Below are positions 51,888-62,612 of a DNA stretch of 64,000 nucleotides, piece after piece. Origin of the DNA: Providencia rettgeri. GTDB lineage: Bacteria; Pseudomonadota; Gammaproteobacteria; Enterobacterales; Enterobacteriaceae. The DNA is taken from positions 3,472,001 through 3,536,000 of the forward strand of contig NZ_CP017671.1 of the NCBI RefSeq assembly GCF_001874625.1, given 5' to 3'. Made by a program: the position numbers and the translations under genes. Every line of letters starts with the position of its first letter. Positions within the stretch are counted from its first letter, which is position 1. A model generated the notes under the pieces. The model did not search any database. It was not told the origin of the DNA and worked only from the letters and a program-made list of their open reading frames with translations.

Positions 51888-51888
<1 letters not shown>
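51562..51888 (-). CDS. Head-tail connector (gp6-like)
   Basis: A 108-residue helical protein (MLSLELVKQHCNIDADFTDD; LLLIGQWYESREN) of the HK97 gp6/DUF3199 adaptor family, which binds below the portal. One-base overlap with the EP-repeat protein. Confidence 0.9.
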
Positions 51889-52136
<248 letters not shown>

Positions 52137-55605: not shown

Positions 55606-57348
55606 TTAGATCCCCACTATAATTGGATCATCAAAGAAACCTTCAATATCCCCGTCGTCTTCGTATTCCTCTTCTGATGCACCGATTGCCATTGCGGAAG
55701 CTACAACGCCATCGATACGCCCCGTACTCTTCCTTTTTGCAAATATACGGTTTTCTTTTTGGTCTGCTTCCGTCACAGCCGAGGCTGCGTTCCAGCGTAA
55801 ACAGGGATTTGCATGAATAATAATGGTCTGGTCATCAATTAACCCTTCAAATAATTCAATTGAGTGAGGCATCCACAAGCCAGAATCTTTCGCCTTATAA
55901 TAACCTTGCCCGTGAGGAACTAAGGGTACTGTGACTGCCGCCTCATCTAATTTAGGCTCTAAGTATTTGATCCTGTATTGGTCAAATGCAATCGCGAGCA
56001 AATTTACATGCGCTGTGATTTCAGCAATTCGCTCAGCAACAAACTCATATTTAACGGCATTACCGGGTGGTGTGTGGATAAAGCCTTTTCTAGCCCAAGC
56101 ATCATAGGGAACGCGGTCAGTTTTAGCCCTATCTAACAGGGTGTCTTTCGGTGTCCAGAACTCAACATAAAGATGTTTAATTCTTGGAAAATAAAGCGCT
56201 AACGCGGTTAAATCTCGCGTTCCTGATAAATCTAGGCCGCCATAACATTCCTCGCCTTGTAAATCCTCTAATGTGAACGCCTTCTCACAATTCATCCATG
56301 TATCACCATTTATCCATGGATTATCGGCATCCACCCACTGGCAGAAATTAAGCCGACGGACAATGCTTTCTTTAGCTGGCATGCCTTGGGCTTGCGTAAC
56401 TTGCTCCCGTAAATAACGGTCAGTAAAGGTATAACCTAAAGAGGGGTTGGCTTTTCCCCAGCACGATTCATCTTTAAAGGGGTCGTCACCCTCATCAAGT
56501 GAACAGATATAAGAAAAGAAACTGTCATCTTCAATCGAACCTTCAGCGACCTTTCGACCGTATTCATGGTAGTCATAACATACGCTGGTTTTATCATGGC
56601 CACTGTTAGTGATCATAAATATCAATGCTTGCCGTCGACCTTTAGTTCCAGCACGCATCATTTCAACAACGTTATTATTTTTATGCTCATGAATTTCATC
56701 AATTAATGCGCAATGAGGGCGTGGGCCTGACTGCCCATCGTCAGCACTAATCGGTCGGAAAAATGACCCTGTTTTTAAAAAGGCTAAGTTCCACTCTTTA
56801 CCTGTACCACCTGATTTTGTGATCCGCTGGCTCAATGCGGGTGATTGGTCAACCATTGCAACCGCATCACGGAATAAAATCATAGCCTGGTCTTTCTTCG
56901 TTGCTGCGGCATAAACTTCAGCGCGCGGCTCACTGTCAGCCGTTAAGCAATAAAGACCTACTCCACCTGCTAGAGGTGATTTGCCCGAGCCCTTCCCTGA
57001 CTCAACATACACCATGCGAAAGCGACGAGTGCCATCTTCCATTTGCCAACCAAAAATCGAACCAACCACGAAACATTGCCATGGCAGCAAAATAAAAGGC
57101 TTCCCCTCGTGCTCACCACCATTAAGTTTTAGTACCTTTGCAAAGAAACCAATTGCACGCTGAACTGCATCAATATCCCACACTAAACCTCGTTGTTTAG
57201 CTTCTTTCAGGTCTTTAAGGTGTCTAGCACAAGCATTTCGAATGTCGGGGCCAGCAAGAATTTTACCGTCATGAACGTCTTGGGCATATTGCGTTGCAGG
57301 GTCAACCGAAGTACGCGTTGAGCGGGTCTTCCTCTTCTTCTCCACCAT
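55606..57348 (-). CDS. Terminase large subunit (HK97-type, Terminase_1)
   Basis: A 580-residue motor with Walker A-like ESGKGSGKSPLAGGV (about residue 115), Walker B-like CALIDEIHEHKNN, and the nuclease domain with YGGLDLSGTRDLTAL. It overlaps the small subunit by 47 bases. It pairs with a P27-type small subunit and HNH nuclease, the usual cos-packaging set. Confidence 0.95.
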   Translation of the reverse strand: MVEKKRKTRSTRTSVDPATQYAQDVHDGKILAGPDIRNACARHLKDLKEAKQRGLVWDIDAVQRAIGFFAKVLKLNGGEHEGKPFILLPWQCFVVGSIFGWQMEDGTRRFRMVYVESGKGSGKSPLAGGVGLYCLTADSEPRAEVYAAATKKDQAMILFRDAVAMVDQSPALSQRITKSGGTGKEWNLAFLKTGSFFRPISADDGQSGPRPHCALIDEIHEHKNNNVVEMMRAGTKGRRQALIFMITNSGHDKTSVCYDYHEYGRKVAEGSIEDDSFFSYICSLDEGDDPFKDESCWGKANPSLGYTFTDRYLREQVTQAQGMPAKESIVRRLNFCQWVDADNPWINGDTWMNCEKAFTLEDLQGEECYGGLDLSGTRDLTALALYFPRIKHLYVEFWTPKDTLLDRAKTDRVPYDAWARKGFIHTPPGNAVKYEFVAERIAEITAHVNLLAIAFDQYRIKYLEPKLDEAAVTVPLVPHGQGYYKAKDSGLWMPHSIELFEGLIDDQTIIIHANPCLRWNAASAVTEADQKENRIFAKRKSTGRIDGVVASAMAIGASEEEYEDDGDIEGFFDDPIIVGI

Positions 57349-57769
57349 CGATTTTCACCTTTGAGCGAGCTGCCGGAGTCAAACCGAACTCGACTAAATA
57401 ACTTTTAAAACGGCGATCCGCATCAGCCAACATTGCTACTGCTGGGTGCGCTTTAATCAGAAAATCACCCAATTGGGTTTTTGTTGTATAAGTGCGACCT
57501 TCAATTGCTATCGTGTCGCGTAGCTGAAGAATATCAGCGTAGATATCACAAAGCCTTTCCAAAGCCAAAGCATCGGCAATAGTTAAAACGCCCATACCAT
57601 CAAGTAGCAAGGTTAATTTTGCCCATGCGATTTTTCCCCAATCCGTTAAGTGTTCGGGTGGGCTTGGAATTTCACGCCGAGGTTTGGGTTCTTTGTCGTT
57701 AAGTTTTCGTTTCCCCGGATTACCCGTTACCAATTTCAAGTTGGTCGGTTTCGGGCGTCTTCCTGCCAT
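57302..57769 (-). CDS. Terminase small subunit (P27 family)
   Basis: A 155-residue protein starting MAGRRPKPTNLKLVTGNPGK, the signature of P27-family small terminases. LERLCDIYADILQL and LTPAARSKVKI also fit. It recognises the packaging site. A GGGAGG-type ribosome site precedes the ATG. Confidence 0.95.
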   Translation of the reverse strand: MAGRRPKPTNLKLVTGNPGKRKLNDKEPKPRREIPSPPEHLTDWGKIAWAKLTLLLDGMGVLTIADALALERLCDIYADILQLRDTIAIEGRTYTTKTQLGDFLIKAHPAVAMLADADRRFKSYLVEFGLTPAARSKVKIDGGEEEEDPLNAYFG

Positions 57770-57856
57770 CGGAACCTCCCAGAAAAAAACTTTTCATTTC
57801 GCGGTTGTGCACACGAATGACTACGGTCGGTAATTTAAGGCAAAGGTTTTGAACTT

Positions 57857-57880
57857 TTACCCCGCCCCTACCGTTATGAT
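57857..57880. other. GC-rich element upstream of terminase (possible cos)
   Basis: CCCCGCCCCTACCG at 57860-57873 is a short G+C-rich block in an AT-rich 120-base gap between the small hypothetical gene and the small terminase. cos sites of HK97-like phages lie here. Only position and composition support it. Confidence 0.3.
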
Positions 57881-57892
57881 TTCAGATTGAAA

Positions 57893-58105
57893 CTATTTCA
57901 AGTGAATATCAGGCGCATCAGTAACCATGTCATTAGTGCAGGTAAGCTTGACCGTAACCTCTACCGAATTAGTTGCTCCATTGGTGGGTGGTAGGATGAC
58001 CGAGGTTTGGTTACTCAATAGCTGTCCATCCACACTCAATGCATGGCCGACGAAGTGACCATTTTTAAATAGCTTAGATAATTTCACTAACTTTTGATTA
58101 GTCAT
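57893..58105 (-). CDS. Small hypothetical protein
   Basis: A 70-residue protein starting MTNQKLVKLSKLFKNGHFVG; GGAAT precedes this ATG, and a longer frame runs into the HNH gene. Beta-rich, soluble. It begins 2 bases after the HNH stop. No function recognised. Confidence 0.65.
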   Translation of the reverse strand: MTNQKLVKLSKLFKNGHFVGHALSVDGQLLSNQTSVILPPTNGATNSVEVTVKLTCTNDMVTDAPDIHLK

Positions 58106-58106
58106 G

Positions 58107-58460
58107 TTATTTATTCCAATGTGAATTAGGGTCAAGCGGAATACCATCTTCACTGCAGCCGACAACAACACCACTCTTCTCCATGCGCTGCTTAGTAGAG
58201 TTATGATGTGACGCACATAGGCTTTGGTAGTTATTGGTATCCCAGAATAACTTTTGGGCTTTGGCTATCTGTTCGGCACTGCCTGAGTCAAGCGCGTCCT
58301 TCAGTCGGTGTGGAGTGATATGGTCGACCACAGTTGCTGCAGTAATGCGACCTTGCTCTTGGCACATCACGCATAAGGGATGCTTAGCAAGATGGTTAAG
58401 CCTAACCCTTGCCCACCGACCACCGTAGACATTGGTCTTCTTTACCGTAGGGCGCGACAC
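58107..58460 (-). CDS. HNH endonuclease
   Basis: A 117-residue HNH protein: C-x2-C at LCVMCQ, VVDHITPHR (the first H of the motif), and NNYQSLCASHHNSTKQ (N and H). It lies just before the terminase, as in HK97 gp74 and other cos phages, where it is needed for terminase cutting. Confidence 0.93.
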   Translation of the reverse strand: MSRPTVKKTNVYGGRWARVRLNHLAKHPLCVMCQEQGRITAATVVDHITPHRLKDALDSGSAEQIAKAQKLFWDTNNYQSLCASHHNSTKQRMEKSGVVVGCSEDGIPLDPNSHWNK

Positions 58461-59068
58461 AATGGACCGCCTCTCGCTACATCTTCAGCAATAACACTTT
58501 TGATAGTCTGGATCATCAACTTCTCTTGTTGCTCCATTGTCTGTTTTATGCTGATAATATTCATTGCATTAAGACTACCTTTCAGCCTTGCCTCTTCAAC
58601 CTCTTTACCAAGTTCAGTAACCTGACGCTGTAGACCAGATAGGTGTTGCGCTGTCGATTGCTCACTGACAGCAGATGCACATTGAATACCATTTATTTGA
58701 GCTTGCAATTGACTAAACTCAGATTCAACCTGCAGCTTAAACTTTTCGAATTCTGACTGCTCAGTGGAGATAGCTTCACTTGTTCGTAGTATGGCTGCTG
58801 GTGAAGTCAGTGCCTTTTCAGTGTGTTCTTCTGGCGGCAGTACTATTTTCTCTAGTTTGGCTTGTTCAATGCATTCTTCATTAATAAGCACCTGACCATT
58901 TGTAATAAAGAACTTATCAGCACTAAAACCTACGCTTGTTGGCTGCTTTAATCCTGTGCTAACCATCAGCCTTTCAATGCGCTTTAGTTGCGCTTCCAGC
59001 TTATCTAAGTCAGTGCTATCGACTGATATCTTTATAGATAGGGTGGCTATTTCTTTTTTATCTGACAT
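58442..59068 (-). CDS. Coiled-coil protein with J-like C-terminal elements
   Basis: A 208-residue protein starting MSDKKEIATLSIKISVDSTD; the ATG follows GGAGACAG. SADKFFITNGQVLINEECIE echoes the DUF1983-type segment in J (SADTFAIFNN, NNQVFLG). The rest is coiled coil. It could be a tail-associated or assembly protein, but it is placed before the HNH gene; role not known. Confidence 0.6.
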   Translation of the reverse strand: MSDKKEIATLSIKISVDSTDLDKLEAQLKRIERLMVSTGLKQPTSVGFSADKFFITNGQVLINEECIEQAKLEKIVLPPEEHTEKALTSPAAILRTSEAISTEQSEFEKFKLQVESEFSQLQAQINGIQCASAVSEQSTAQHLSGLQRQVTELGKEVEEARLKGSLNAMNIISIKQTMEQQEKLMIQTIKSVIAEDVARGGPLCRALR

Positions 59069-59219
59069 AACTGTCTCCATAAATGAAAAAGCCACCAGTG
59101 ATTAGCTGATGGCCGTACTCCGATTTGGATTAAGTAATAAGTAGTGATAATATCTCGCCGCTGGTCAAGGATGACTGGCCTTACTACAATAATTATAAAG
59201 CTACATTTCCATTAGATAT

Positions 59220-59243
59220 GCCCTTCTATAGAGGGCTTTTTTT
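59220..59243 (+). terminator. Plus-strand intrinsic terminator 1
   Basis: GCCCT-7 nt-AGGGC followed by seven T, on the plus strand, in a region where all annotated genes are on the minus strand. It would end a short plus-strand RNA; a weak promoter TTGGAT-17-TAATAT lies about 70 bases upstream. Confidence 0.75.
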
Positions 59244-59291
59244 ATGTCATTTGATAATCACCAATATAATTGCGCATTTGAAATAACCTGC

Positions 59292-59356
59292 TAGGCTTAA
59301 CGCTGATATTCATCGTAAAGCAATACTTTAGCCTACCGCTGTGTAGGCTTTTTTTT
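59292..59356 (+). promoter_or_regulatory. Attenuator-like element with terminator 2
   Basis: TAGGCT (59292-59297), AGCCTA (59330-59335) and TAGGCT (59344-59349) then eight T. The middle element can pair with either copy of TAGGCT. Pairing with the second gives a terminator, and pairing with the first would prevent it. This is a classical attenuation layout, but no downstream plus-strand gene is seen. TATAAT lies at about 59265, without a good -35. Confidence 0.55.
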
Positions 59357-59505
59357 ATTTGCATACGCGTTTTTCAATATTCTTTTCCGTATTTCGTAAC
59401 AATTTATACCTAGATTATTTAACTTATATTGGTATCATGCTCACGCCCTTACGACATTTGGGTATTCATAATCAAAAATTAGTTCAATAAACTAAATAAA
59501 TCCTT

Positions 59506-59533
59506 TCCCCTTTTCGCAAAAGGGGATTTTTTT
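59506..59533 (+). terminator. Plus-strand intrinsic terminator 3
   Basis: TCCCCTTTT-CGC-AAAAGGGGA then seven T. A perfect 9-bp stem, on the plus strand, just before the 3' end of the Acb2-like gene. It may also stop converging transcription, though no T run follows on the minus strand. Confidence 0.8.
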
Positions 59534-59540
59534 ATTACAA

Positions 59541-59729
59541 CTAACCTAATTTAGCTCGCACAAGGCAATCTTTAGCCTCAAGTAACTTGCGAAGTCCCGC
59601 TGACTTCTCGGCACCATCTGGTAACTGTTCATCCATCTGCTTAGCTAAATCACCAATAGGCTTACTAACCTCTTGCAAGTGAGCTGGTAGATGTTGGTAT
59701 TCAAAATATTTCATGATTGGATTAGGCAT
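59541..59729 (-). CDS. Acb2-like anti-CBASS cyclic nucleotide sponge
   Basis: A 62-residue helical protein: FEYQHLPAHLQEVSKPIGDL, then AKQMDEQLPDGAEKSAGLRK and LLEAKDCLVRA. The pattern (Y/F)EYxHLPxHLQxVSKP...LP-x-G-AE-x-x-x-x-LRKLLEAKD matches the Acb2/Tad1 hairpin family. Acb2 forms a hexamer that sequesters cyclic oligonucleotides, so CBASS effectors stay off. AGGAG lies 6 bases before the ATG. Small size and late-operon position fit known members. Recognition is by sequence pattern only. Confidence 0.8.
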   Translation of the reverse strand: MPNPIMKYFEYQHLPAHLQEVSKPIGDLAKQMDEQLPDGAEKSAGLRKLLEAKDCLVRAKLG

Positions 59730-59748
59730 TTAGTACTCCTGTAGATAT

Positions 59749-59774
59749 TAAAAAGCCCCTGATTTCTCAGAGGC
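59749..59774 (-). terminator. Terminator upstream of the Acb2-like gene
   Basis: On the minus strand: GCCTCTGA-GAAA-TCAGGGGC followed by TTTTT. It ends transcripts from the moron genes upstream and separates the Acb2-like gene from them. Confidence 0.83.
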
Positions 59775-59800
59775 TCAATATTGATTTATTGAATTAGGTT

Positions 59801-60175
59801 TTAAGATGAGTGCTTTTCTTTAAAATAATAACCGATGATAAAACCAAGTGAGGTGCCGAGAGCGCTGATTATGAGTGATAAAACCTTATCCAGCTCAAGT
59901 AAAGATACCTTACTCGCGGCCTCAACAAGCCCGCGATCACTTAATGACTCAATCCATAAAATGGCGCAATAATTATATAAGAGGACAAATAAACCGCCGC
60001 CTGCAATGGAAAAAAAGAAACCACGAACAAAAAACGTTGTTAACCTTCCTCTTGCTTCATTATCAGCTCTAGAAATCTCTTTCTGCTGACCCTCATTTAT
60101 TTTTGCAAATGTTGGCTCATTACTATGAATCGAATTATTTAATCCATCTAGCGCCTTACGTACAGAGTTTGTCAT
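59801..60175 (-). CDS. Two-span membrane protein (moron)
   Basis: A 124-residue protein with two predicted membrane helices, FVRGFFFSIAGGGLFVLLYN (about 48-68) and IISALGTSLGFIIGYYF (about 100-118), and a soluble charged N-terminus. It lies between spanins and the Acb2-like gene. It could act in superinfection exclusion or anti-defence; no family recognised. Confidence 0.65.
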   Translation of the reverse strand: MTNSVRKALDGLNNSIHSNEPTFAKINEGQQKEISRADNEARGRLTTFFVRGFFFSIAGGGLFVLLYNYCAILWIESLSDRGLVEAASKVSLLELDKVLSLIISALGTSLGFIIGYYFKEKHSS

Positions 60176-60185
60176 GCAATGTACC

Positions 60186-60584
60186 TCAACTATTCCCTAT
60201 TTTCTTTAACGCTTGCCCGTAATCTTTTAGTAAGGAGGTTGCGTATTCATTGGAATGAATGGTTGCTTCCATAACTCTTTCAGCAAACTTGTTTATTTCA
60301 TCGATGAGTCGTAGATCTTCTTCGGTACCATTCTGCCGCAGTCTCATCTCCAATTCAGACATAAGCCTTAACGCTGACGTAGATACATCATATAAATCCT
60401 TATATAAAGCATCTCCTTTTGACCTATACCTAGCTAAATCTTCGAGTATTTCCTTTTTACTGGACATATTTATTTTCCATAGCATCCATAATGCGAACAA
60501 TGGGAAAAATATAGCACGAAAAAGGTTAACGATGACCATCTTAAGACTCAAATGATAGTTAGATCCTGTTTTTGATGTGTACAT
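60186..60584 (-). CDS. Membrane-anchored coiled-coil protein (moron)
   Basis: A 132-residue protein with one N-terminal membrane segment (VIVNLFRAIFFPLFALWML, about 17-36) and a cytoplasmic coiled-coil rich in D, E, R and L (ILEDLARYRSKGDALYKDLY). It begins 9 bases upstream of the two-span gene's operon partner and probably works with it. Function unknown. Confidence 0.65.
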   Translation of the reverse strand: MYTSKTGSNYHLSLKMVIVNLFRAIFFPLFALWMLWKINMSSKKEILEDLARYRSKGDALYKDLYDVSTSALRLMSELEMRLRQNGTEEDLRLIDEINKFAERVMEATIHSNEYATSLLKDYGQALKKIGNS

Positions 60585-60593
60585 AGCACCTCA

Positions 60594-60848
60594 CTAGTTA
60601 TTTCTAGCCGCTTCAATCTCTCTAATGGCTTTTTTATCTAAATTGCACTGCTCAATCACCGTTAGTAGCGACTCATTTATCAATAGAGAGTCACCCCAAG
60701 GAAATGTCTCAGGGATGTACTCAGGCAAACAATCATTGAGTAAATGAGCTGGAATGGGCACTGATGGCGTTTGAACGTATTCTATTCGCGTGGTTGTGCA
60801 GCTCGATAGTAGCATCACGAGGAGCATCAATAGCGGCACACTTATCAT
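60594..60848 (-). CDS. Rz1: Outer-membrane spanin Rz1
   Basis: An 84-residue lipoprotein. The ATG at 60846-60848 gives a signal peptide MISVPLLMLLVMLLSSC with lipobox LSSC. An upstream ATG at 60938 would add 30 residues, unusual for a lipoprotein. Its 5' part overlaps Rz in another frame. The periplasmic part is Pro-rich then helical. Start choice is uncertain because no clear ribosome site exists. Confidence 0.75.
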   Translation of the reverse strand: MISVPLLMLLVMLLSSCTTTRIEYVQTPSVPIPAHLLNDCLPEYIPETFPWGDSLLINESLLTVIEQCNLDKKAIREIEAARNN

Positions 60849-61122
60849 CCACAATAACGGTTTTGATAATGGTTTTAACCGTTTCAGAAGCCACTGCTGC
60901 CGCGTCGCGTTCCCTAAGGTTATTTCGTGAGATTTCATTGAATGTTACCGAAAGTTCTAAAACGGTGGACAATATGAATTGATTGGCGGCTAGCTCATTT
61001 GCTTTTTTATCAAACTTATCACTTAATTTGTCATAGTCATTCACAACCCAAACAAGCCAAAATAATAAAATGGCACAAGTGGCCATTAATGCTTTGGTTA
61101 GTATGCTTAATTGCTGCCCCAT
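60733..61122 (-). CDS. Rz: Inner-membrane spanin Rz
   Basis: A 129-residue protein: signal-anchor MGQQLSILTKALMATCAILL then a periplasmic helix (VVNDYDKLSDKFDKKANELA), the i-spanin pattern. It follows the endolysin and overlaps it by 16 bases, and overlaps Rz1 by 116 bases. Confidence 0.87.
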   Translation of the reverse strand: MGQQLSILTKALMATCAILLFWLVWVVNDYDKLSDKFDKKANELAANQFILSTVLELSVTFNEISRNNLRERDAAAVASETVKTIIKTVIVDDKCAAIDAPRDATIELHNHANRIRSNAISAHSSSFTQ

Positions 61123-61463
61123 CGTGCTTTATATCCTCTCACATCGATATGTGTGAATGTCTTATAGCGACCAATGCCGTAGCTATCAGGAAAGATAGAT
61201 TCAAGATAATCAGCCACTATTTTAGGCGCTACATCCTTGACTTTGATATCTGCCGCAGTGCCTAACAAGTGTTGTGATCTAGGCGCGCCACCTACACTTT
61301 TATTATGGTTGGTGCAGCGACGGCCACTGACAATAATTACTGGCTTACTAAAATGGGCACGAACACTTTCAAGTATTTCAACCAACTTAGGTTCAACTTG
61401 ATTTGCTCCGCACCCGTCTTTACATGCAAATTCATTACTATCGAAATGTTTACTTAATTTCAT
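61107..61463 (-). CDS. Endolysin, peptidase M15 type
   Basis: A 118-residue D-Ala-D-Ala carboxypeptidase-like enzyme: PRSQHLLGTAADI (metal-binding H and D) and THIDVRGY (second H). EFACKDGCGANQVEPKLVEI opens the fold. It cuts peptidoglycan cross-links at lysis. This is a different class from the endolysin of prophage 1. Confidence 0.92.
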   Translation of the reverse strand: MKLSKHFDSNEFACKDGCGANQVEPKLVEILESVRAHFSKPVIIVSGRRCTNHNKSVGGAPRSQHLLGTAADIKVKDVAPKIVADYLESIFPDSYGIGRYKTFTHIDVRGYKARWGSN

Positions 61464-61828
61464 TTCTTCACCATAAAAGTAAAAGGCCGCTTAATTAGCA
61501 GCCAGATTGATTTGATTCGGGCTATTAATTTACTAATGACAACAACCGACATGATGTTTCCACCCGCAGAGAAGATAACGGTAAATAAAACACCACTAAA
61601 CAATACATCTGATGATGCTGCTATACGCTCGCCCACCGCCGTTTGATAAATTTGATAAACCCAACAAACAAATAAGACTGTGCCGATAATCGAATCTCGG
61701 CGCTTAGCATAACGACACAAAAACACGGTGATTGCTGAGGCGGATTTAAACAAAATATCAGCAACCCCTAATGGATGAGTATCTATCCAGCAGGCTATGT
61801 CAGTAAAAATCGTTAAGAAGGCATCCAT
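61460..61828 (-). CDS. Holin, phage_holin_3 type
   Basis: A 122-residue membrane protein with three predicted membrane segments and the motif VFLCRYAKRRDSIIGTVL, shared with the holin at 16271-16549, and AGGNIMS near the C-terminus. It overlaps the endolysin start by 4 bases. Confidence 0.85.
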   Translation of the reverse strand: MDAFLTIFTDIACWIDTHPLGVADILFKSASAITVFLCRYAKRRDSIIGTVLFVCWVYQIYQTAVGERIAASSDVLFSGVLFTVIFSAGGNIMSVVVISKLIARIKSIWLLIKRPFTFMVKK

Positions 61829-62241
61829 CAGTTACCCCCTTTATTTCGCCAATCTTTAATAGCTTGTACGATACTGCTAAAGTTTCGGTCTATTGATGCG
61901 GCAATACGACTAAACAACTTTCTAAGGTTGTCTTTGTTTGCAGCAAGCACCAAAACGGGGATTAACAAAGCCGAAATAATAATGGCTGTTATCTTAGGGC
62001 TAATTTCCCACTGCCATACCTGAGCAATAAAATCTGAGGCTTCTTTAGCAATGAGGATCCCCGCACCTAACGCCAAAATAAAATGAAGTATCTTTCGTCG
62101 GTTATTATCTTTAGATGCAATGACGGAAATTGAAGCGCCAATAACTGCCCCTAGCACAACACCATAGTCGGCACCAATAAGGAAACCGCCCATCGCGCCA
62201 CCGCCAGCAGCACCGAGGGTTATCCCTATTGATGTGCTCAT
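61828..62241 (-). CDS. Putative holin/antiholin partner
   Basis: A 137-residue protein, the homologue of 16546-16959: Gly-rich N-terminus (ITLGAAGGGAMGGFLIG), ASISVIASKDNNRRK block, hydrophobic middle and the same length. It overlaps the next holin by one base. Conservation of this pair in two otherwise different prophages argues that the two proteins work together. Confidence 0.7.
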   Translation of the reverse strand: MSTSIGITLGAAGGGAMGGFLIGADYGVVLGAVIGASISVIASKDNNRRKILHFILALGAGILIAKEASDFIAQVWQWEISPKITAIIISALLIPVLVLAANKDNLRKLFSRIAASIDRNFSSIVQAIKDWRNKGGN

Positions 62242-62336
62242 AAATGATTTATTCTCTTGATTTAATAGAAATCCACCAGCTACAGAAGCTAATGTGGGTT
62301 AATGAATTCAGTTGATATTTAGGTTAAGTTAGAGGT

Positions 62337-62381
62337 TCAGCCCTATGTGACTTACCGAAGGGATGGCTGATTAACTTCGGT
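62337..62381 (+). promoter_or_regulatory. Interleaved inverted repeats in leader of plus-strand gene
   Basis: TCAGCC (62337-62342) pairs with GGCTGA (62365-62370), and ACCGAAG (62354-62360) pairs with CTTCGGT (62375-62381). The two stems interleave, so the RNA could form an H-type pseudoknot or switch between two hairpins. It ends 2 bases before the ribosome site GAGG (62384-62387) of the next gene, so it could control translation. Confidence 0.6.
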
Positions 62382-62393
62382 GTGAGGAAATTT

Positions 62394-62612
62394 ATGCAAT
62401 ATAGTAATAATTTAGATACTAGCGCGAGATTGTATGCTATTGAATCTGCCCTTGCTTATACAATCACGGCTATATCCCACAAGACCCCGTCAGTTAAAAA
62501 CAATATAGTTAATGCGTTGAGATTTGATTCAGATAATAATAATTCAGCTACTAAAGAAGCTCTTTTAGCCCTTGCCGCACTCATTGAGTCATTTGAAGTT
62601 ACACAGAGTTAG
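62394..62612 (+). CDS. Lone plus-strand small protein
   Basis: A 72-residue helical protein (MQYSNNLDTSARLYAIESAL) with GAGG 6 bases before its ATG (an upstream GTG is less likely). It is the only supported plus-strand gene after the second integrase, set within a minus-strand late operon, so it is a likely lysogenic or separately regulated gene. No family recognised. Confidence 0.6.
   Translation: MQYSNNLDTSARLYAIESALAYTITAISHKTPSVKNNIVNALRFDSDNNNSATKEALLALAALIESFEVTQS

Follow-up and report, generated by a model that had tools for sequence, protein, structure and literature searches.

The gene considered in this work occupies positions 59541..59729 (stop codon included) on the minus strand of a 64,000-nucleotide stretch of Providencia rettgeri DNA (contig NZ_CP017671.1, positions 3,472,001 to 3,536,000), hereafter the window, and codes for a 62-residue protein (P0001) that starts from an ATG and carries the pattern FEYQHLPAHLQEVSKP...LRKLLEAKD. 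An earlier note on this DNA had described the product as an Acb2-like protein disarming the cyclic oligonucleotide-based antiphage signalling system (CBASS); the open reading frame and its pattern lie where the note had placed them, and the strand, which it did not give, is the minus one, the plus-strand reading from 59541 being interrupted by stops. A Shine-Dalgarno motif (AGGAG, 59736..59740, minus strand, read from the sequence) is found 6 nt upstream of the ATG, and a consensus scan combined with folding revealed, just upstream of the gene, a terminator-like hairpin of 10 pairs followed by TTTAATATCT (59753..59776, minus strand), which may separate the gene from the lysis genes or may be leaky. 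No Rfam family was found at gathering thresholds on 58000-62600. On the basis of the analyses reported below, we propose that phrog_1761, the family to which P0001 belongs, can be placed in the Acb2/Tad1 hairpin superfamily as a divergent sister branch and is probably a sponge for an immune nucleotide, a reading to which we assign a probability of about 0.6.

The gene lies between lysis and packaging genes and adjoins two genes lacking a useful Pfam name, as had been noticed before. The order on the minus strand is holin, phrog_36995, M15 endolysin, Rz, Rz1, the two unassigned genes, the P0001 gene, a 217-residue gene, HNH nuclease and terminase small subunit. The lysis cassette (Rz1-like, Rz-like, M15 endolysin, phrog_36995 protein and holin) spans 60594..62241 and the packaging side (terminase small subunit of the Terminase_4 family, HNH endonuclease and the 217-residue gene) spans 57302..59095, both on the minus strand. 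The two intervening neighbours, also on the minus strand, code for a protein of 124 residues assigned to phrog_20796, a family without assigned function, with hydrophobic stretches recognized by eye (59801..60175), and for a protein of 132 residues with no useful family and a hydrophobic stretch, also seen by eye, near its N terminus (60186..60584). All eleven genes compared match those of one viral contig (L005) at 100% amino-acid identity (rounded). Downstream of the P0001 gene, the stretch 59096-59540 is non-coding and contains three plus-strand terminator-like hairpins (at 59220, 59330 and 59506). This stretch is conserved at 99.6% identity in contig L006 and at 96% over 318 bases in contig L007, where the gene next to it is merely 48-51% identical to its window counterpart and a second, diverged copy of the stretch (75-79%) is found upstream of the P0001 homolog; it is possible that it harbors small RNAs or a cos-type site.

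The P0001 reading frame is not a chance one: it is a real gene of a large, uncharacterised phage family. Compared with the PHROGs, P0001 matches phrog_1761 at 6e-36 and phrog_5120 at 7e-26, both without an assigned function. A tblastn search (E limit 0.1) retrieved the family in 367 of 50,697 phage records, including phages that infect Vibrio, Erwinia and Acinetobacter as well as actinobacterial and alphaproteobacterial hosts, and the proteins in the phage rows listed are mostly named "hypothetical protein". Among viral contigs, 531 stretches were confirmed for the P0001 query (the best 80 of the 531 were used), and two divergent family members used as queries gave at least 587 and at least 579 confirmed stretches; to these are added 44 loci in genome contigs and 24 of 72,556 plasmid records. 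Within the genus, the family is present in 4 of 24 genomes, the source genome included, and one of them (G014) carries an N-terminally truncated copy. This copy (L088), likely a decaying gene, is a 48-residue frame with homology from residue 24 and is shared, at 100% identity over 3,117 bases, with a locus of Providencia rustigianii (L560). In the alignment of 112 members, F9, H13, L14, R47, E51, K53 and V57 are invariant; in a larger set of 187 members, F9, H13, R47, E51 and K53 each recur in 184-186 of 186-187 sequences, and V57 in 181 of 186. In 4 of the 40 phage rows listed (MZ675741, OQ101258, OQ101249 and OQ101257), members of the family are labelled "occludin homology domain protein", probably from a sub-threshold Pfam match like the one obtained with P0001. 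A literature search returned no text naming phrog_1761, and the texts containing "occludin homology domain" were unrelated to this family.

The analysis of the relationship with Acb2 was based on three sets of Acb2 proteins, gathered from the best 80 loci per scan and resembling Xandras gp101 (67 distinct proteins), Pseudomonas p26 (72) and Ac42 (66), respectively. Xandras gp101 is annotated as "hypothetical" in GenBank and is described as an Acb2-type CBASS antagonist in an excerpt of PMC11953737; it matches the Acb2_Tad1_hairpin profile PF24729 with 59.1 bits, and the profile of its branch retrieves from the PDB the "Acb2 homolog 43" 9ptq at 7e-12 and Tad1 at 1e-4, so that, on sequence grounds, the identity of this branch as Acb2 is secure. 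(The literature search returned one text containing "Acb2 homolog" and no text in which "9PTQ" is named.) When 187 family members were aligned with the 67 Xandras gp101-like proteins, hhalign returned 95.1% with an E value of 3.3e-8, gapless over P0001 residues 18-52, and other alignments against the same branch gave 93.6% (66 P0001-type proteins) and 93.2%. None of 150 column shuffles reached the real value (the best gave 25.4% and 7.6e-4), and the reversed alignment gave 0.3%. At the level of single sequences, 14 of 43 residues are identical between P0001 and Xandras gp101 in a gapless stretch. Moreover, in the PHROG ranking for P0001, phrog_1454 stands third (1.2e-4) after the two families of P0001 itself; this is the family of Xandras gp101 (8e-30), and it also matches T4 Acb2 (Vs.4) at 7e-4, with an identical register when the alignment is taken as gapless.

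The ranking of whole sets of reading frames gave the same picture in both directions. The hidden Markov model (HMM) of the Xandras branch was run on 312 loci carrying the P0001 family (25,762 frames), a sample that includes redundant contigs, contains the gene of the window twice and varies in the length of its stretches; all of its 64 matches at E<=1e-3 belong to the family, as do 282 of the 295 at E<=10 and each of the first 93 (311 family frames were present). Conversely, when the HMM of the P0001 family was applied to 240 Acb2 loci (5,411 frames), the ten frames retrieved at E<=1e-3 were all Xandras-branch Acb2, and at E<=10 Acb2 accounted for 77 of 84, including the first 76. Of the Acb2/Tad1 kinship claimed in the earlier note, a remote homology is retained, through profile-profile comparison and two-way HMM ranking, as is an association with Acb2 and Tad2-like genes, and a direct family match is not; we consider the distant homology of phrog_1761 to this superfamily very probable. 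The idea that P0001 is a generic short helical hairpin sharing no common descent with Acb2 appears very improbable in the light of the gapless, shuffle-tested profile match, of the clean two-way ranking over thousands of frames and of the genomic slot that the two share in T4-like phages.

This slot is found in T4-like phages of Acinetobacter, one gene away from gp60plus39; in Ac42 it is occupied by a true Acb2 (68.4 bits), in ZZ1 as in 133 by a gene of the P0001 type. The gp60plus39 proteins are 58-64% identical among the three phages; on the other side of the slot, rnlB (52%) is found in Ac42 and ZZ1 and is located elsewhere in 133. A second association comes from viral contig L061, which exhibits the order spanin, Acb2 (58.3 bits), Tad2-like (59.5 bits), P0001-type, antirepressor and terminase, that is, the same type of junction as the window; the three genes at L061:3152-4189 form a compact anti-defence cluster between spanin and terminase. 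L061 is alone among the 312 loci in having an Acb2 frame of the Pseudomonas or Ac42 type. A Tad2-like gene is present in 7 of the 312 P0001-family loci, in all seven over the Pfam cut-off, and in five of them it lies 11-216 bp away on the same strand. The closeness of the two genes has a combined p of 6e-5 against uniform placement, and of 4e-4 without L061, which had prompted the search. For comparison, a Tad2-like frame lies within 500 bp in 10 of the 240 Acb2 loci, a count obtained with the same HMM, with no Pfam check and from partly redundant loci.

The structure predicted by AlphaFold2 for P0001 (mean predicted local distance difference test, pLDDT, 96.2) consists of a short helix (residues 4-9) followed by two long antiparallel helices (16-35 and 40-61), an arrangement that fits the description of the Acb2 protomer in the excerpted text of PMC12043709. 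The model has no strands, and the N-terminal antiparallel beta sheet of the Tad1 type is therefore absent. Of the structure expected in the earlier note, the helical protomer is supported by this prediction.

Several results weigh against the reading of P0001 as a relative of the known sponges. The match to the Acb2/Tad1 hairpin profile on which the earlier note had staked its assignment was not obtained: PF24729 matches neither P0001 at E<=1 nor the ZZ1 copy at E<=10, and among 112 relatives it gives eight matches, all below the cut-off of 27 bits (best E 0.014). The unrelated profile Occludin_ELL gives fourteen such sub-threshold matches on the same relatives and a better E value (0.006), and the positive controls T4 Vs.4 (71.4 bits), Ac42 (68.4) and Xandras gp101 were recovered by PF24729. 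The motif quoted in the earlier note is present, but it is the signature of phrog_1761 and not that of Acb2/Tad1 in the Pfam definition. No solved sponge in the PDB matches P0001 by sequence; structure comparison retrieved generic helical bundles, and the absence of Acb2 and Tad1 from the best 50 of 94 chains is not a disproof. In addition, the homology rests on a single Acb2 branch, since the Pseudomonas-type and Ac42-type sets, each taken alone, give no hhalign signal (0.7% and 0.1%) and the pooled Acb2 sets with T4 Vs.4, which reach 89.5% with a smaller alignment, fall to 38-39% with the larger one, even though shuffled versions never reach the real value (best 2.4%). As for the genomic company, 305 of the 312 loci showed no Tad2-like gene within the stretch examined. 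The neighbourhoods vary widely, which is also what is expected of movable cargo: when 129 loci were compared with the window, Rz1 was common to 17 and the terminase small subunit to 14. Lastly, several P0001 homologs are found among head genes, and a structural role would explain these as well. Matches of P0001 to Occludin_ELL, Gp22 and Ile-tRNA ligase in Pfam, NCBIfam and the PDB were sub-threshold or due to chance and were discarded; the Tad2-like profile PF11195 does not match P0001.

A further group of observations concerns the residues of the ligand site, compared in a register between the P0001 family, T4 Acb2 and the Ac42-like set that was inferred through phrog_1454 and the bridging Xandras branch. 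At the position of T4 Thr68, a threonine is present in 65 of 67 proteins of the Xandras branch and in 60 of 65 Ac42-like ones, and an arginine in 185 of 187 members of the P0001 family; at the position of T4 Phe82, 182 of 186 members have Leu, Val or Ile. Both changes also count against the proposed reading. In T4 Acb2, F82 is reported to stack against the base of the bound nucleotide and the substitution Y8A to disrupt binding (PMC12657218), and T68M is reported to lower the affinity (PMC12657230). Helix 2 of the Xandras branch bears the signature R-E ... T-K-L-E-E-A-M-F-W-A-N, and that of the P0001 family, almost as strict, reads E ... L-R-K-L-L-E-A-K-D-x-x-V-R, EEAMFWAN being replaced by LLEAKDxxVRA. 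The difference suggests that the ligand of the P0001 family is probably not one of those usual for Acb2, or is bound in another way, and positions that are strictly conserved and yet different point to a site that may have been retained but re-specified. The arginine with which helix 2 starts in the Xandras branch (67 of 67) and in the Ac42-like set (63 of 65) is replaced by Pro or Ala in 176 of 186 family members; as an argument this loss is weakened, because T4 Acb2 itself has Asp61, so that the residue does not define Acb2 and its change proves little.

With the ligand residues mapped in T4 Acb2 changed, binding of cyclic GMP-AMP (cGAMP) or cyclic triadenylate (cA3) by P0001 and inhibition of CBASS cannot be assumed, and we regard such a canonical activity as rather unlikely. 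The related proposal that P0001 is simply an Acb2, binding cGAMP-type dinucleotides and cA3-type trinucleotides and disarming CBASS in spite of these substitutions, is the alternative that fares best, although it too appears unlikely. It would account for the homology to an Acb2 branch and for the company of Acb2 and Tad2-like genes, Acb2s do tolerate variation, as the Asp61 of T4 exemplifies, and the C-terminal site may be preserved in part, R58 (174 of 186 members) being aligned with T4 R79 and with an arginine in all 65 sequences of the Ac42-like set. It is opposed by the replacements at the Thr68 and Phe82 positions and by L061, where a P0001-type gene stands beside a true Acb2 and redundancy is unlikely. 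It is opposed also by the source genome, in which a profile search found neither of the CBASS markers SMODS and SAVED; PF24729 and Tad2-like (PF11195) genes were not found there either. The suggestion that the prophage blunts CBASS of its host is thus left unsupported in this genome. In the genus, adjacent SAVED and SMODS genes occur in 1 of 24 genomes (G002:C1:2085359-2086373, L564 and L565), probably a CBASS locus. A search for the STALD domain of Thoeris gave no match anywhere, controls included, and is uninformative.

A less probable alternative is that the ancestral hairpin shared with Acb2 now binds a protein or is associated with the virion, for instance as a head or late-gene accessory, rather than serving as a sponge. 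In Rhodococcus phage Perlina, Acinetobacter phage R3177 and Roseovarius RPP1 the homologs have head or structural genes around them, which would agree with it, and the strictly conserved charged residues of helix 2 would suit a protein interface too; however, other homologs are located away from the structural regions, near lysis genes or beside Tad2-like genes, and their positions are not fixed as those of a structural gene would be. (In the head gene region of the window itself we observed an 82-residue open reading frame, minus strand 51888-52136, in which Pro-Glu repeats extend over a long stretch close to the C terminus.)

We therefore do not file P0001 as an Acb2, the PF24729 profile and the mapped ligand residues having been tested and not found in it, and retain for it, with the same confidence as for the family as a whole, a role as nucleotide sponge or in direct anti-signalling. 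By analogy with Acb2, the predicted protomer, a short N-terminal helix with two long antiparallel helices, would assemble into a small oligomer; this would bind, without cutting it, an immune nucleotide produced in the course of infection, and the effector would then stay off. More tentatively, and at somewhat less than even odds, phrog_1761 might be a new and very widespread class of sponges, whose pocket was rebuilt (R47, E51, K53, D54 and R58, with H13 and S22) for a signal outside the range of Acb2 and Tad2. A pocket rebuilt for a different signal would explain why Acb2, Tad2-like and P0001-type genes are found in one prophage block. If the family does consist of sponges, a large hidden set of phages would be able to silence nucleotide-based immunity, and the altered pocket would point to a signal or a specificity not catalogued so far. 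In a literature search for Sequestin, Lockin and "viral sponge", Sequestin was not named among the matches listed.

A last point concerns the comparison with the sponges already described. Acb2 (anti-CBASS 2; T4 Vs.4, 7uq2; the Pseudomonas phage protein, 8h2j/8ixz; 9ptq) resembles P0001 in being a small phage protein with a short helix and an antiparallel pair, in having one branch that is homologous at the profile level and in occupying the same slot in the T4-like phages of Acinetobacter; P0001 differs from it in falling below PF24729, in the positions of T4 Thr68 and Phe82 and in its 62 residues, which leave out the long loop that some Acb2s possess. Tad1 (Thoeris anti-defence 1; 7uav, 8kbe) has the hairpin domain in common with the bridging Acb2 branch, but, as stated in the excerpt of PMC12043709, it possesses an N-terminal beta sheet, which the P0001 model lacks. 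Tad2, which the same excerpt also describes as a nucleotide sponge, is not matched to P0001 by its profile (PF11195), and its relation to the P0001 family is one of neighbourhood, with a Tad2-like gene near in 7 of the 312 loci and adjacent in five.
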